From Sphingobium sp. AP49 (lineage in GTDB: Bacteria > Pseudomonadota > Alphaproteobacteria > Sphingomonadales > Sphingomonadaceae), in the NCBI RefSeq assembly GCF_000281715.2, contig NZ_CP124576.1, forward strand, positions 2,673,501-2,737,500: a DNA stretch of 64,000 nt, read 5' to 3'. A model generated the notes under the pieces. That model made no database searches, was not told the DNA's origin, and saw nothing but the letters and a program-made list of their open reading frames with translations. This document shows, in pieces, positions 28,375 through 32,979 of the stretch (positions within the stretch are counted from its first letter, which is position 1; each line of letters starts with the position of its first letter). The position numbers and the translations under genes are program-made.

Positions 28375-29489
28375 GACCGCACCGTAATATCTGCCAGCGT
28401 GCGCCCGCCCGGATCCTGGGACGGGGTCGCCGTGATCGTGTAACCGGCCGCCTGCAGCGCCAGCAACACGATGTTGATGTCATCCGCCTTGGCCGCGGCC
28501 AGCGTCGCGCGCAGCATGCCGTCGGGATCGCGCGACAGCGACGTCAGCGACACGCCCGGCGCATCCTGCATCGCGCTCATCAGGCCGGCGACCGGCGCGG
28601 TGAAGGCATAGGCGCCAGCTCCGCGCGCAGCGAGTTGCCGGTCCATCTCCGCCTCGACCTGCATCACATCGCTCGCATCGGGCAGCACCTGCCGGGCTAG
28701 GCCCAGGCTTTGGTCATCGACCTGGCTGGCGGCGACATTCTGCCGTACCAACGTCACCAGGCTGAGGAGCAGGCTCGCCAGCAGGATCAGCCCGCACCAG
28801 ATCGCGATCCGGCCCAGCACCCGCGCGTCGATCTGCCGCCTGACCCGCTTGGCGAAATCGCCCTGGCGCAGGTCGATCGGCGGCGCATCGAGCGCGGCGA
28901 CGATCTGCGCATCGATCTCTTCGGCTGCGACCGCTCGCACCGGCGCATTGCCGATCAGTTCGGGCAGCGCCATGTCGCCGGTCAGCGCCATGTCCGGGCC
29001 GCGCAAGACCGGCATTCCAGCAATCATTCCGGATACGAAACCATTATCGCTTTCCGGCAGCAGCAGCGCGGCCGGCACGATGATGTCCGGGTCCAGCCCA
29101 TGATGCTGTGCCCAGAGCAGCCAATGCTGCATGTCGCTGCGCGCTGCGACCGCCACGATATGCGGCCGGGCCGGATCGTCATTCTCGTCGGCGGCGGCGA
29201 ACAACTGGTCGGACGGCAGGATCGCGCCGGCCAGCGCGCCCAGCCGCGCAGCAGCGCGTCCCTGCCGCGCGGGCAGGTCGGGATGCGACACCCAGTGCAG
29301 CGCCACCAGCGCGGCCGGTGGCACCAGCATCACCCGCGCCCTGTCGGGCAGCGCGGCCAGGCCACAGGCAGCCAGCCAGTTGGCGCCCGTGCCGGTCTGG
29401 ACGATCGCGCCATCCACCACACGCATCCATGTCGGCGCGTCCTCCGCCCCTTCGGGCAGGGCAAGGATCAGGGCATCGGCTGCGCTCAT
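28371..29489 (-). CDS. gspL: Type II secretion protein L
   Basis: A 372-residue protein. The N-terminal actin-like cytoplasmic domain (residues about 1-220) docks the GspE ATPase. A single helix (IAIWCGLILLASLLLSLVTLV, about 235) is followed by a periplasmic domain that contacts GspM. The start ATG 29489 (MSAADALILALPEG) overlaps the gspK stop by four bases; an upstream ATG would run further into gspK. Confidence 0.92.
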   Translation of the reverse strand: MSAADALILALPEGAEDAPTWMRVVDGAIVQTGTGANWLAACGLAALPDRARVMLVPPAALVALHWVSHPDLPARQGRAAARLGALAGAILPSDQLFAAADENDDPARPHIVAVAARSDMQHWLLWAQHHGLDPDIIVPAALLLPESDNGFVSGMIAGMPVLRGPDMALTGDMALPELIGNAPVRAVAAEEIDAQIVAALDAPPIDLRQGDFAKRVRRQIDARVLGRIAIWCGLILLASLLLSLVTLVRQNVAASQVDDQSLGLARQVLPDASDVMQVEAEMDRQLAARGAGAYAFTAPVAGLMSAMQDAPGVSLTSLSRDPDGMLRATLAAAKADDINIVLLALQAAGYTITATPSQDPGGRTLADITVRS

Positions 29490-30481
29490 GCGCCCGCCCC
29501 CCAATCACGCCGCAACAGCACCACCGGCTGCTGTCGCGCATCGATCAGGCCGCGCTCCACTATCTCGGTTCCCCCCACATTCACCGACACATCCACTCTG
29601 AAAAATCCCGTCGTCAACTTGACCTGTTCGGCCACCTCGGCGAGCGGGCTGAGCCCCGCCAGCGAGGGCATAGCCCAGAATTGCACCGTGCTGCCGTAGC
29701 CGTCCGCCGGTCGCTGCGCCAGCAATTGCCGCGCCTGGGCGATACTCAGTTGCCCGGGCAGCAGCATCGCGAACAGCGGCGCCTGATCGGGCAGCAAGGT
29801 ATTGATATTGATCGGCGAAAGATCCGACGTCGGCAGCGCACAGACCCAGGGCCGCACCAGATCGTAGATCGCCGGCGTAATGCCGTTCACCGCGCGCAGT
29901 TCGCTGGCGTCGACCATGAAGCGGTTGCCCGTGCGATAGGGCCGCGCTGCGCGGGCATAGGTCTCGTCCTCCGCGCCGCCCGGCTGGGGCGCGCTGTCGG
30001 TGTCGATCCAGTCGGCAAGCGAAGCGGCGGCGGCCTGCGCCTGGCGCGCATCGATGCCCAGCGCCTGCAACAGTCCCTGAAATTGCGATACGCCGACCGG
30101 ACGGACCTTCAGGTTATTCTCATTGTCGCCGGCGACGACGCTGTTGAGGTTGAAGCAGTTGCCGCCATCGGTCACCCTCGCCGTCGCGATACCGCCGGGC
30201 ACCGGGATCGCCTGCGGCGTGCCCATCCAGTTGCCCGCCAAGGTCGTCTTGCCGGGGCTGGCCGCGATCAGGTCACCGATCTTCAGCCGCGCGATCACCA
30301 TGCCGGCATCGGCATAGGCCCGCCCCTGGTCGACCGCGCCGCCATTGCCGGTCATCCGCGTCGCCAGCGCCACCCGCTCCAGCGCGGTTGCCGCCACCAC
30401 CGCCATCACCGCGACCAGCAGCAATACGGTCAGCAGCGCGGCGCCGCGTTCTTCGGGACGGTTGGGATCAGGTCGCCGCAT
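29486..30481 (-). CDS. gspK: Type II secretion minor pseudopilin K
   Basis: A 331-residue pseudopilin. The leader reads MRRPDPNRPEERG with the cleavage-type junction G-AALLTVLLLVAVMAVVA. As is usual for GspK, the mature +5 residue is not Glu. The large C-terminal insert has the alpha-domain and calcium-site-like segments (DWIDTDSAPQPGGAEDETYA). It caps the pseudopilus tip with GspI and GspJ. It overlaps gspJ by 14 bases. Confidence 0.94.
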   Translation of the reverse strand: MRRPDPNRPEERGAALLTVLLLVAVMAVVAATALERVALATRMTGNGGAVDQGRAYADAGMVIARLKIGDLIAASPGKTTLAGNWMGTPQAIPVPGGIATARVTDGGNCFNLNSVVAGDNENNLKVRPVGVSQFQGLLQALGIDARQAQAAAASLADWIDTDSAPQPGGAEDETYARAARPYRTGNRFMVDASELRAVNGITPAIYDLVRPWVCALPTSDLSPININTLLPDQAPLFAMLLPGQLSIAQARQLLAQRPADGYGSTVQFWAMPSLAGLSPLAEVAEQVKLTTGFFRVDVSVNVGGTEIVERGLIDARQQPVVLLRRDWGAGA

Positions 30482-31133
30482 TGGCCGCCTCCATATCCTC
30501 GGGCAGCGCTTCCTTGGGACCGGGCGCCACCAGGAAGCGGAGCGTCACCGGCGGCTCGCCGGTGCGCGTCACCATCATTTCCACCGCACGCGGCATCAGG
30601 TCGGGCTGGCCCGGCGTCCAATCCTCGCGCCATTCGCCCTCCCCATCGCGGAAGCGCAGCGTCACCTCCTCGACATGGTCGAGCAGCGCCGCCGGCTCGT
30701 CACCCGCCGCGCCGTCGATCTGGGCATAGCCGCGTCGTTCGAGCCGGCCCTGCCGCACCCAATATTCGACCTTCTGCAAGGACGGCCGGGGCAGATCGCC
30801 AAGATTGTCCCATCCGCCGCGCACGAACTGCATCACCGGCTGTTCCTCGCCATCGCGATGCGCCCAGAAGGCCGGCGCCAGCGTCCCCGCCTCGGTGCGG
30901 CTGATGCGCGGCACCGCCTGCCCCAGATCGGCCGACAGCGCGCCCGCAGCCCGCTGGATCGCCGCCATGTCGTCCAGCCGCGCCTTGACCTGCGCCTGCG
31001 CCGACACGCTGTTGCCGAGCAGCAGCACGCCCGCCGCCGCCAGCATCGCAAAGATCATCAGCGCGACGAGCAGCTCGATGAGGGTAAAACCTTGTTCATC
31101 CCGTCCCCGTTGTGGCTTCTCCGGCCTCATCAC
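30468..31133 (-). CDS. gspJ: Type II secretion minor pseudopilin J
   Basis: A 221-residue pseudopilin with a normal short leader (MMRPEKPQRGRDEQG) followed by FTLIELLVALMIFAM, with Glu at +5. Its leader has no 33-bp repeat, unlike gspG, gspH and gspI. It overlaps gspI by four bases (ATGA). Confidence 0.94.
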   Translation of the reverse strand: MMRPEKPQRGRDEQGFTLIELLVALMIFAMLAAAGVLLLGNSVSAQAQVKARLDDMAAIQRAAGALSADLGQAVPRISRTEAGTLAPAFWAHRDGEEQPVMQFVRGGWDNLGDLPRPSLQKVEYWVRQGRLERRGYAQIDGAAGDEPAALLDHVEEVTLRFRDGEGEWREDWTPGQPDLMPRAVEMMVTRTGEPPVTLRFLVAPGPKEALPEDMEAANAAT

Positions 31134-31534
31134 TCCACCTCCCGCAGGAAGCTGAGCACCACCGGCGACGCACCCGGCTGGCCGTCGACCACCAGATCGA
31201 CTTGCAACAGCCTTTTGTCCTCGGTCGCCTTGACGGTGCGGGTCCAGTGCCAGCGGCGACCGCCATTCTCGACCTCGCCATCCTCCTCGCCCACGGAGGG
31301 CGGAGCGACATCGCTCTCTACCTCGACCATCAGGTTGCGGGCGACGATCTGGCCCAGCGCCTTGCTGTCGAGATCGGCGGCGGTGCGCAGCGTCACCCCC
31401 TGCAACCGCACCAGCGCCAGCGCCGCGAGGCTGAACACCGCCAGCGCGACCAGCATTTCGAGCAGCGTGAAGCCGTTTTCGGCGGAACGCCTCAAAGGCG
31501 TGAAGCCGTTTTCGGCGGAACGCTTCAAAGACAT
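31130..31534 (-). CDS. gspI: Type II secretion minor pseudopilin I, with a repeat-built leader
   Basis: The mature pseudopilin begins G-FTLLEMLVALAVFSLAALALV with Glu at +5 and has the usual GspI length after cleavage. The leader is unusual: upstream of the true site the frame repeats RSAENGFTPLR and related units, encoded by 33-bp tandem repeats. ATG 31534 gives a 134-residue protein with one decoy unit. The frame stays open to GTG 31750, which overlaps the gspH stop, through a palindromic element; that would give 206 residues. The start is therefore uncertain. No good ribosome-binding site is visible at 31534. Confidence 0.8.
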   Translation of the reverse strand: MSLKRSAENGFTPLRRSAENGFTLLEMLVALAVFSLAALALVRLQGVTLRTAADLDSKALGQIVARNLMVEVESDVAPPSVGEEDGEVENGGRRWHWTRTVKATEDKRLLQVDLVVDGQPGASPVVLSFLREVE

Positions 31535-31556
31535 GAAGCCCTGTTGGGCGGAACGC
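31467..31556 (-). repeat. 33-bp tandem repeat in the 5' end of gspI
   Basis: Units at 31467-31499 and 31500-31532 are full copies; 31533-31556 is a partial copy. Two further diverged units (31622-31654, 31655-31687) lie inside the neighbouring palindromic element. Each unit encodes RSAE(N/Q)GFTPL(K/R). In the unit at 31533 the Thr codon ACG has become ATG, which creates a possible gspI start codon. Confidence 0.88.
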
Positions 31557-31571
31557 CTACCCCAATCACCG

Positions 31572-31725
31572 TCGTCATCCCGGACTTGATCCGGGATCCA
31601 TTCGGCGCTCCATCGCCGGGCGTGGAGCCCTGTTGGGCGGAACCCATAGAAGAGGTGAAGCCCTGTTGGGCGAAACGCTCCAAAGCGCAGCGCCGAATGG
31701 ATCCTGACTTTCGTCAGGATGACGG
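31572..31725. repeat. Interspersed palindromic element A, copy 1 (contains two 33-bp units)
   Basis: Outer arms are complementary: the left (31572-31611) is itself a hairpin CCCGG-ACTTGAT-CCGGG and ends ATCCATTCGGCGCT; the right (31689-31725) begins AGCGCCGAATGGAT and holds the hairpin CCTGACTTTCGTCAGG. The centre carries two diverged 33-bp pseudopilin units, absent from copy 2. The element lies between gspH and gspI and is an open reading frame in the gspI frame. Confidence 0.85.
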
Positions 31726-31742
31726 AAGAAAAGGGCCGCCGA

Positions 31743-32420
31743 TCAACCACCGACCGCGACCTTTCCGGCCATGTCGACGCTGACCTGCACCCGCTCCGCC
31801 TCGCGCGCCAGGGTAATGGTCAGCGGATCGGTGGGCAGGCCGGTGCCGTCAAAGGCGATCTGCTGGCGGCCATCCTTGCCGACGAGCGCCCGCGTGCCGG
31901 TCTTCCAGTTGGTGCTGACGAAGGGGTTTTCCTCCATCGGCACCCATTGGCCGCCCTCGCGGCGCTGGAAGCCATAGCCCGAGGCCGAGACCCACACACC
32001 CATCGGGCGCGCGGTGACGACCGCTTCATCGCGCGCGGCGGCTACGCGCGCGGCAAAGCGATCGGCATCATCGACGATCCGCCCGCGCGGATCGGGAATG
32101 GCGATCACCACGGCAGCCGAAATGAAACCGATGATCGTCAGCACGACCATCAGTTCTATCAGCGTGAAGCCGTGTTCGGCGGAACGCTTCAAAGGCGTGA
32201 AGCCGTGTTCGGCGGAACGCTTCAAAGGCGTGAAGCCCTGTTGGGCGGAACGTTTCAAAGCCGTAAAGCCGTGTTCGGCGGAACGGCCGTCCCGCTCACC
32301 GCCGTCATCCCGGACTTGATCCGGGATCCATTCGGCGCTCCGCTCACGACGCAGCGCCGAATGGATCCTGACTTTCGTCAGGATGACGGCAGGAGAAATC
32401 CGCCGGTCAGCCACCGTCAT
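31743..32420 (-). CDS. gspH: Type II secretion minor pseudopilin H, with a repeat-built leader
   Basis: The mature part begins G-FTLIELMVVLTIIGFISAAVVIAI, with Glu at +5, and is about 142 residues, normal for GspH. The reading frame before it consists of about four RSAE(H)GFTPLK-type units and then a palindromic element read as VILTKVRIHSAL...EWIPDQVRDD. Possible starts are ATG 32420 (chosen, downstream of the gspG stop) or 32435, giving a leader above 80 residues, or an undetected alternative start inside the repeats. Confidence 0.75.
   Translation of the reverse strand: MTVADRRISPAVILTKVRIHSALRRERSAEWIPDQVRDDGGERDGRSAEHGFTALKRSAQQGFTPLKRSAEHGFTPLKRSAEHGFTLIELMVVLTIIGFISAAVVIAIPDPRGRIVDDADRFAARVAAARDEAVVTARPMGVWVSASGYGFQRREGGQWVPMEENPFVSTNWKTGTRALVGKDGRQQIAFDGTGLPTDPLTITLAREAERVQVSVDMAGKVAVGG
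32164..32286 (-). repeat. 33-bp tandem repeat in the 5' end of gspH
   Basis: Units at 32164-32196, 32197-32229 and 32230-32262 are full length, with a partial unit at 32263-32286. They differ from each other by a few bases and keep the gspH frame. The unit nearest the gene body includes the real prepilin cleavage site G-FT. Confidence 0.9.
32302..32389. repeat. Interspersed palindromic element A, copy 2
   Basis: Same outer arms as copy 1 with only about 15 bases between them. It sits between gspG and gspH and is open in the gspH frame. The in-frame reading KVRIHSAL...EWIPDQVRDD is typical of how this repeat translates when it falls inside a gene. Confidence 0.85.
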
Positions 32421-32460
32421 CCACCGTCCGGCCATCAAGGCCCGCGGAAGGCGCGCGCCT

Positions 32461-32979
32461 TCACAGTTCGCTGGAATAGATGTCCGCATTTTCATTCTCG
32501 CCACCCGGCTGGCCATCGGCGCCCAGCGAGCTGATGTCGAACGCGCCCTTCCTGCCCGGCACGGTGTAGATATAGGCGCGCCCCCACGGGTCCTGCGGCA
32601 GCTTCTTGATATAGCCGCCGCGGCGATAGCGCTGCGGCTGCGCCAGCGAGGCGGGCGGATTGAGCAGCGCCTGCAGCCCGTCCGACGCGGCGGGATAGGT
32701 CAGGTTGTCGAGGCGATATTGCTCCAGCGCCTGTTCGATGGTCGAAATGTCGGCCTTGGCCTTCTCGACGCGGGCGGTGTCGGTCGCGGGGATGACGTTG
32801 ATCGCCACGATCGTCGCCAGCAGGCCGATGATGACGATCACGACCATCAGTTCGACCAGCGTGAAGCCGTGTTCGGCGGAACGCCTCGCAGACGTGAAGC
32901 CGTCTTCGGCGGAACGGCGGGGGGCATGCTGTGCCTCTCGTTCGATCAGCGCGGCCCGGATCTTGTTCAACTTCAGCAT
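32461..32979 (-). CDS. gspG: Type II secretion major pseudopilin G
   Basis: A 172-residue precursor with a solid start (AAGGAGT before ATG 32979). The leader is 38 residues, MLKLNKIRAALIEREAQHAP followed by two RRSAE-type units, then the site G-FTLVELMVVIVIIGLLATIV with Glu at +5. The mature 134 residues fit GspG, including DPWGRAYIYTVPGRKG and the acidic calcium-site end. It forms the shaft of the pseudopilus. The leader is longer than typical and contains an extra GFT motif. Confidence 0.95.
   Translation of the reverse strand: MLKLNKIRAALIEREAQHAPRRSAEDGFTSARRSAEHGFTLVELMVVIVIIGLLATIVAINVIPATDTARVEKAKADISTIEQALEQYRLDNLTYPAASDGLQALLNPPASLAQPQRYRRGGYIKKLPQDPWGRAYIYTVPGRKGAFDISSLGADGQPGGENENADIYSSEL
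32861..32917 (-). repeat. 33-bp repeat (two copies) in the 5' end of gspG
   Basis: One full unit (32861-32893) and one partial (32894-32917) encode RRSAEDGFTSA and RRSAEHG-FT. The same unit as in gspH and gspI, here in a gene with an unambiguous upstream start codon, which shows that at least these copies are translated. Confidence 0.85.

Follow-up and report, generated by a model that had tools for sequence, protein, structure and literature searches.

Why should three genes of one operon carry tandem copies of the same 33-bp sequence just before the codons at which their products are matured? The question is raised by the type II secretion system (T2SS) locus of Sphingobium sp. AP49, on contig NZ_CP124576.1 (positions 2,673,501 to 2,737,500). 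This 64-kb stretch is called the window below, and coordinates are counted from its first base. Its minus strand carries gspD, gspE, gspF, gspG, gspH, gspI, gspJ and gspK, each with Pfam support, in a genome assembled as a single contig of 4.5 Mb. The repeats lie in the leaders of pseudopilin genes, that is, in the region before the prepilin cleavage site. We consider it probable, with moderate confidence, that the repeat is a minisatellite resembling repetitive extragenic palindromic (REP) sequences, that it is housed in translated and disposable prepilin leaders, and that it spreads among gspG, gspH, gspI and gspJ by exchange at the cleavage-site DNA which these genes share.

Arrays in the window and in related genomes

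The original prediction described 33-bp repeats in gspG, gspH and gspI, and Tandem Repeats Finder together with a repeat search bore out both the repeats and their positions. A 68-base repeat query against the 4.5-Mb genome matched five stretches (E <= 4.4e-11), all at the gsp locus, and the next best match had an E-value of 0.5; this query rules out a chance origin of the repeats. A 21-base core of the unit, searched with up to 2 mismatches, gave 11 matches in the window, all directly before a prepilin motif, and the proposed search for it outside gsp found none elsewhere in the genome. The products of gspG, gspH, gspI and gspJ combine an N_methyl segment (G/F-T-L-x-E, the slash marking the cleaved bond) with a family domain, and these four are the only N_methyl matches in the genome at E up to 0.1.

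All genes and arrays that follow are on the minus strand. The longest open reading frame (ORF) of gspH encodes 257 amino acids (31743..32516; Pfam GspH 1.3e-11, N_methyl 2.8e-8). Its leader of 107 residues (32169..32489) begins at a conserved ATG within the end of gspG, and an ATG 6 nt further upstream is also possible. Besides a palindromic insert the leader holds four units (32162..32285; Tandem Repeats Finder period 33, 3.8 copies, 92% matches), namely the decoys RSAEHGFTALK, RSAQQGFTPLK and RSAEHGFTPLK, followed by the true site RSAEHG/FTLIE. The gspI ORF (206 amino acids, 31130..31750; T2SSI 4.8e-19, N_methyl 1.3e-7) starts with a leader of 93 residues (31472..31750), read from a conserved GTG at the gspH stop, and its array (31465..31558; period 33, 2.8 copies, 88% matches) encodes RSAQQGFMSLK, RSAENGFTPLR and the true site RSAENG/FTLLE. 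The precursor of the major pseudopilin, gspG (172 amino acids, 32461..32979; T2SSG 1.1e-38, N_methyl 6.4e-9), has a leader of 38 residues (32866..32979) with an ATG start after AGGAG; one decoy unit lies at 32884-32916 and the true-site unit begins at 32883, the repeat search placing the pair at 32858-32925. The gspJ leader (14 residues, 31089..31130) contains no unit here. Thus, counting the unit at the true cleavage site, as in all counts per gene below, the in-frame units number two in gspG, four in gspH, three in gspI and none in gspJ, and gspK has none.

Two details of the window differ from what had been expected. Three units plus two displaced ones were predicted in gspI, and this count is right; the displaced pair (31612..31677) is out of frame, translating as FRPTGLH and not RSAQQGF, and hence encodes no G-F. 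The extra units were also said to have Pro at +3 and Lys or Arg at +5. The latter is true of all six in-frame decoys, but Pro at +3 occurs in only three of them, residues +2 to +5 being TALK, TPLK and TPLK in gspH, MSLK and TPLR in gspI, and TSAR in gspG.

The repeats are not peculiar to one genome and are far more widespread than first noted. With gspG matches in 81 of 100 relatives, the comparison set was made up of 60 gsp loci, 55 of them from the genus of the window, with one genome per species. Frames and units were counted in the window and in loci with the usual gene order (50 rows for gspG, 50 for gspH, 49 for gspI and 49 for gspJ); loci L092-L096, whose gene order differs, were excluded, L068 lacked gspH and gspJ matches, and L091 lacked several anchors. 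Leader statistics refer to the 186 of 198 gene rows in which the conserved start was found. Units were called by a loose regular expression, so that a few of the 204 found in the genus are doubtful.

Within roughly 50 genomes of the genus, the count of units, which had been proposed as a check, gave 0-4 in gspG, 0-5 in gspH, 0-3 in gspI and 0-5 in gspJ. The earlier statement that gspJ and gspK lack repeats therefore holds for the window, but gspJ has up to five units in relatives. Many genes have no unit at all (18/50 gspG, 22/50 gspH, 27/49 gspI and 25/49 gspJ). With up to 2 mismatches allowed, 56 of the 61 genus genomes contain the core, which lies on a single strand in all but G052, and a reversed control pattern matches 3 of the 61. 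Among the matches listed for these genomes the core clusters at gsp genes, with at least four strays that each have 2 mismatches, and the unit is essentially confined to pseudopilin genes. Matches lie within 330 nt before a same-strand prepilin motif in 195 of 196 cases in genus loci L042-L096 and in 115 of 115 cases in loci L254-L270, nearly all from other genera. In a family-wide draw, 55 of 397 genomes contained the core, nine of them from the genus of the window; the reversed control pattern matched 13, and many single matches with 2 mismatches are thus probably due to chance. A protein-database search with the gspH leader alone returned 20 matches, every one with a prepilin N_methyl domain.

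A second, divergent T2SS also occurs in the genus. Two units lie in one pseudopilin gene of its locus L271, four in another gene of L272 and one in that same gene of L273; all seven core matches in L271-L273 are within 330 nt before a same-strand prepilin motif.

Copy number changes quickly. On a tree of mature gspG, gspH and gspI DNA from 49 genomes, at least 24 changes of unit count are required for gspG, 23 for gspH, 15 for gspI and 19 for gspJ. Counts carry no phylogenetic signal in gspG and gspH, for which 249 and 280 of 1000 shuffles were as low, and some signal in gspI and gspJ (2 and 15 of 1000). The predicted minisatellite-like variation is seen even between loci L063 and L066, whose mature gspG, gspH and gspI share 98.6% identity in their first 100 codons: gspG has 2 against 3 units, gspJ has 1 against 2, and the entire gspH leader differs. 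Entire inserts in gspG, gspH and gspI differ between L043 and L059 (97.4%). The arrays are tandem, neutral to the frame and variable in copy number among relatives, as coding minisatellites are.

Could the repeats be an assembly or sequencing artefact? Assembly can indeed be unsure here. In genome G237, two contigs (C84 28500-31889, locus L264, and C53 1-4000, locus L265) are identical over 1408 bases of the gspG-gspJ region between the arrays and differ in array length, gspG having 4 against at least 7 units and gspJ 9 against 5; C53 starts within an array and C84 stops just past one. This difference may be copy-number polymorphism or a product of assembly. However, the genome of the window is one 4.5-Mb contig and the core recurs in the great majority of genus assemblies, and we regard an artefact as extremely improbable.

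It had also been suggested that long repeated leaders tune the targeting or processing of pseudopilins, through decoy sites or charge. Most leaders carry a net positive charge (135 of 186, with 26 neutral and 25 negative; mean +2.2), and G-F is encoded by every in-frame unit of the window. However, units may sit in any of the four genes, in no fixed number, and many genes have none, and this speaks against a stable role as decoys; moreover, gspG and gspH counts lack phylogenetic signal, leaders of 7 residues suffice for gspI in six relatives and for gspJ in one, and two units of the window are out of frame. We consider such tuning unlikely.

Probable translation of the leaders

The leaders are very probably translated, to judge from their starts and frames. 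Starts are conserved in position. In gspG the start is an ATG after AGGAG, found in 46/50 rows; gspH begins with an ATG within the end of gspG (47/50), gspI with a GTG at the stop of gspH (47/49), and gspJ with an ATG that overlaps the stop of gspI (46/49). The distance between the upstream stop and the cleavage codon keeps a single phase in all 49 gspI rows (16-274 nt), in all 49 gspJ rows (20-293 nt) and in 47 of 50 gspH rows, so that the prediction of a preserved reading frame stands. A length of 33 being divisible by 3, units were subtracted before the phase was assessed again; the remaining lengths keep one phase in 26 of 26 distinct values for gspI, 27 of 27 for gspJ and 26 of 29 for gspH. 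Of the 45 loci in which gspG has an ATG after GGAG, 44 have the first such ATG in frame and open; five loci lack the pattern.

Where the gap is at least 60 nt, no stop interrupts the coding frame in 36/37 cases for gspH, 22/22 for gspI and 30/30 for gspJ, whereas the other two frames are open in 21 and 18, 10 and 10, and 17 and 16, respectively. No stop occurs in the gspH, gspI and gspJ leaders that have the conserved start (140 of 148 rows); for gspG, openness was demanded by the search itself. Measured from the conserved starts, leaders are 7-107 residues long, and 104 of the 186 exceed 30.

These data bear on the alternative that the repeats are an untranslated 5′ region and that translation begins at an internal ATG or TTG in or below the arrays. 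Some units do contain an ATG (GFM), in-frame TTG is frequent in the spacer, and PMC3733652 notes that many REPs at ORF N termini may be extragenic. On the other hand, the constancy of phase in gspI and gspJ across 26 and 27 distinct non-unit lengths, and the lack of stops, argue against it. A start below all copies, which the original prediction named as a finding that would overturn it, is therefore unlikely, and we regard the untranslated reading as very improbable. Four leaders go the other way and weigh against our own reading: in L066, L077 and L079 gspH does not keep phase with the conserved ATG and would need another start, and in L077 the first ATG after GGAG in gspG is out of frame. 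These may reflect new starts, broken genes or sequencing errors.

Conservation of the unit as DNA

The core is an imperfect palindrome of 21-24 bp, CGTTCCGCC(G/C)AACA(C/G)GGCTTCACG, and a variable spacer completes the 33 bp. It encodes R-S-A-E-H-G-F-T or the compensatory twin R-S-A-Q-Q-G-F-T; of the two common cores, GCCGAACACGGC encodes A-E-H-G and GCCCAACAGGGC A-Q-Q-G, and the bases that distinguish them are the two ends of a small hairpin. Codon use shows that conservation of the unit acts on the DNA and runs counter to codon bias. In the 204 genus units, compared with mature pseudopilin genes, the frequency of CGT for Arg is 0.88 against 0.09, of TCC for Ser 0.96 against 0.18, of GCC for Ala 0.95 against 0.31, of CAA for Gln (codon 4) 0.86 against 0.16 and of CAC for His 0.94 against 0.35, and all 12 Asn codons are AAC against 0.37. 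The same holds for 113 units from 16 loci of other genera, a count that includes both G237 contigs and units sought only before prepilin motifs: CGT 0.93 against 0.13, TCC 0.91 against 0.12, CAC 0.98 against 0.47, and AAC 14/14 against 0.48. The unit is nearly unchanged in sequence across genera while its copy number shifts quickly.

One base pair covaries. Bases 10 and 15 are G-C in 125 of the 204 units, C-G in 58 and G-T in 8, with mismatches C-C in 6, G-G in 5 and C-A in 2; the end pair of the inner stem (GCCG/CGGC or GCCC/GGGC) is thus formed in 191 units including G-T, and the core has the short palindrome expected of a REP. In 86 distinct 24-mers, no other two positions have as much mutual information as bases 10 and 15 (0.494, next 0.311), which are paired in 75 of them, against a mean of 44.8 and a maximum of 62 after shuffling; for distinct 30-mers the numbers are 162 of 173, mean 94 and maximum 114. 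Within-genome unit pairs that are identical over 24 nt save at these bases comprise 40 double switches, 2 G-C/G-T changes and none with a mismatch. Across all distinct 24-mers, pairs differing only there comprise 11 G-C/C-G, 3 C-G/G-T, 2 G-C/G-T and 4 that involve a mismatch, and both core types are found in 11 sequence contexts. The outer-stem pairs show no covariation and the remaining inner pairs hardly vary; a longer conserved hairpin was rejected, as pair 10-15 alone covaries. Outside the genus the C-G type occurs in 1 of 113 units and 6 are unpaired, and exchange of a few founder cores could accordingly yield part of the covariation.

A role of the unit as nucleic acid would account for this conservation: an RNA hairpin tuning translation or mRNA stability in the overlapping gspG-gspJ, or a site for a protein or recombinase, the peptide being a by-product. 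The covarying pair and the codon use in Sphingobium and other genera are consistent with it, as are the gspH and gspI arrays, which fold better than shuffles (z -3.1 and -2.6), and four out-of-frame cores that persist in gspI of the clade of the window. However, gspG units fold at chance level (z -0.2), a large share of genes does without any unit, the outer stem does not covary, the other inner pairs hardly vary, and hairpin-templated mutation or the exchange of two ready-made cores could produce the same pattern, the C-G type being nearly absent outside the genus. We think this role rather doubtful.

A different account, which we rate as a tentative possibility, would make the unit a sequence-specific homing micro-element. 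Its palindromic core would enter only genes with prepilin cleavage-site DNA, in the four paralogues, the second T2SS and several genera, and only in a segment that is always cut off; the nucleotide conservation and the coupled switch of G-C and C-G would then reflect self-copying, for example by hairpin-templated synthesis.

Proposed spread between genes and relation to known systems

Prepilin peptidase is expected to cut only beside the transmembrane segment, and Glu at +5 should be dispensable for cutting. The enzyme should thus remove everything before the last G/F, the sole one adjoining the transmembrane segment, and repeats in the leader would be tolerated because of this removal. In the minisatellite reading that we favour, the gspG, gspH, gspI and gspJ leaders of Sphingobium and related genera are translated, modular and fast-changing; unit copies would expand and contract locally, and would also move from one of the four genes to another when recombination or template switching takes place at the cleavage-site DNA (GGC TTC AC, codons G/F-T), which is common to genes and unit. 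Other REP-like palindromes would invade the same leaders, and selection would keep only the reading frame from the conserved start codon.

Several observations are consistent with such movement, with recombination presumably taking place at GGCTTCAC. In 52 of 101 unit-bearing leaders, G-F and a spacer stand at unit distance just before the first unit (e.g. DERG-FTPLR-RSAENG), as if spacer plus RSAEHG had been placed between the native G and F. In L082, gspH and gspJ have 81 identical leader nucleotides, the longest such run among 265 within-genome gene pairs. Moreover, REP-bearing leaders of different genes and species have a similar run from the end of the REP to GGCTTCAC.

REP-like inserts are themselves frequent in the leaders. 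In the window, a palindromic insert of the CGTC type lies in the gspH leader (32296..32390), with the in-frame reading AVILTKVRIHSA...AEWIPDQVRDD, and the gspI leader has a REP-like insert in two halves (31566..31611 and 31686..31725). The palindrome of both leaders contains CGTCATCCCGGACTTGATCCGGGATCC, with CGTC at its start. Elsewhere in the genome it has a near-full copy at 708277 (83% over 89 bases) and three partial copies of 27-35 bases at 3468508, 3862247 and 2351525. REP-like peptides of four kinds, found by regular expression, occur in 58 of 186 leaders from 31 genomes, genomic dispersal having been examined for the CGTC type of the window. A run of about 27 bases (TCGAGTGCCGACGAGCGCGGCTTCACG-like) that joins REP and cleavage site is similar in leaders of L046 gspI, L054 gspG and gspJ, L055 gspH, L065 gspI, L081 gspH, L082 gspH and gspJ, and L086 gspJ, as if REP and site had travelled as one cassette. 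In loci L153-L181, mostly from Sphingopyxis, the leaders examined are mostly free of units, those inspected from Sphingopyxis having none, and in some of them a REP-like peptide (WAPAFAGAR...ERG, for example) precedes the cleavage site. The range of the leaders as a sink for other repeats may thus exceed that of the 33-bp unit.

The control is gspK (29486..30481, minus strand), which we take to be a pseudopilin of the same operon from its T2SSK domains; it has no N_methyl match, and its leader should presumably be cut off likewise. Its site, ERG/AALL, lacks GFT, and the GGC-TTC-AC codons are absent. The gap before it spans 25-28 nt in 46 of the 49 loci and never exceeds 52 nt, and the leaders listed contain neither units nor REPs. 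The junction from gspK to gspL, measurable in 32 of 49 loci, is 17 nt in 30 and 11 nt in 2, without expansion. The notion that any disposable leader expands was rejected on the near-constancy of gspK; disposability alone is therefore insufficient. The obvious difference from gspG, gspH, gspI and gspJ is the shared GGC-TTC-AC DNA, and the gspK leader may have other constraints.

Other points also weigh against the reading that we prefer. A leader that should be equally disposable takes neither units nor REPs, so tolerance does not suffice, and neutral tolerance leaves the conservation of core nucleotides across genera unexplained. The neutral expansion that the original prediction had allowed for accordingly fits in that repeats are tolerated, and fails to explain a core held as DNA with a covarying pair or a gspK that hardly varies. 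Exchange between genes is inferred from sequence comparison, no recombination event having been observed; a leader run of at least 40 nt is common to only 4 of the 265 within-genome gene pairs, and GGCTTCAC is found in 87 of 101 unit-bearing genes but also in 38 of the 85 that have no unit.

These leaders offer a clean natural case of repeats within a translated, probably disposable peptide, where the frame is the visible constraint. About 200 aligned copies and an internal control gene, gspK, provide material for studying the spread of short palindromes and the reasons for the constancy of their DNA. Annotators should bear in mind that in these bacteria a pseudopilin gene can start a long way upstream of its cleavage site. 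In addition, pseudopilin maturation may tolerate leaders from 7 to more than 100 residues, which is directly testable. A limited literature search found no published account of a unit that is restricted to prepilin leaders and whose sequence is conserved from genus to genus.

Compared with known systems, the four genes resemble T2SS pseudopilins GspG/H/I/J in their N_methyl motif, family domains and gspD-gspK gene order, and are unusual in leaders of up to 107 residues, the shortest relatives here having 7. With coding minisatellites (variable-number tandem repeats), whose units have lengths that are multiples of 3, the arrays share a frame-neutral period of 33 and copy numbers that vary between close relatives. 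However, known cases sit in one gene and are not known to have conserved DNA between genera, whereas this unit has a covarying base pair and is shared by four paralogous genes, by a second T2SS and by several genera.

CGTC-tagged REPs of sphingomonads are known, PMC3733652 naming S. chlorophenolicum and S. wittichii, and the gspH and gspI palindromes resemble them in the CGTC at their start and in their copies elsewhere in the genome. The 33-bp unit differs from those REPs: no dispersal into intergenic DNA was found, the unit in this genome being restricted to the gsp locus. Its core lacks GTAG/CGTC end tags, and CGTC is seen in some spacers by inspection rather than formal test. The Y1/RAYT transposase family PF01797 has no match in this genome, against matches in 5 of 14 control genomes, and mobilisation of the core by RAYT therefore failed as a candidate for this genome.

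The same source places REPs within coding genes and mentions Rickettsia elements. Like those Rickettsia palindromic elements and intragenic REPs, the unit is short palindromic DNA that lies in frame within protein genes, save the four out-of-frame gspI cores, and adds a peptide with protein function presumably kept. Unlike them, it does not insert into many unrelated kinds of gene, as the uniform N_methyl domain of the database matches indicates; as far as searched, it is confined to prepilin leaders, where it is tandem, anchored at the cleavage codons and conserved across genera.

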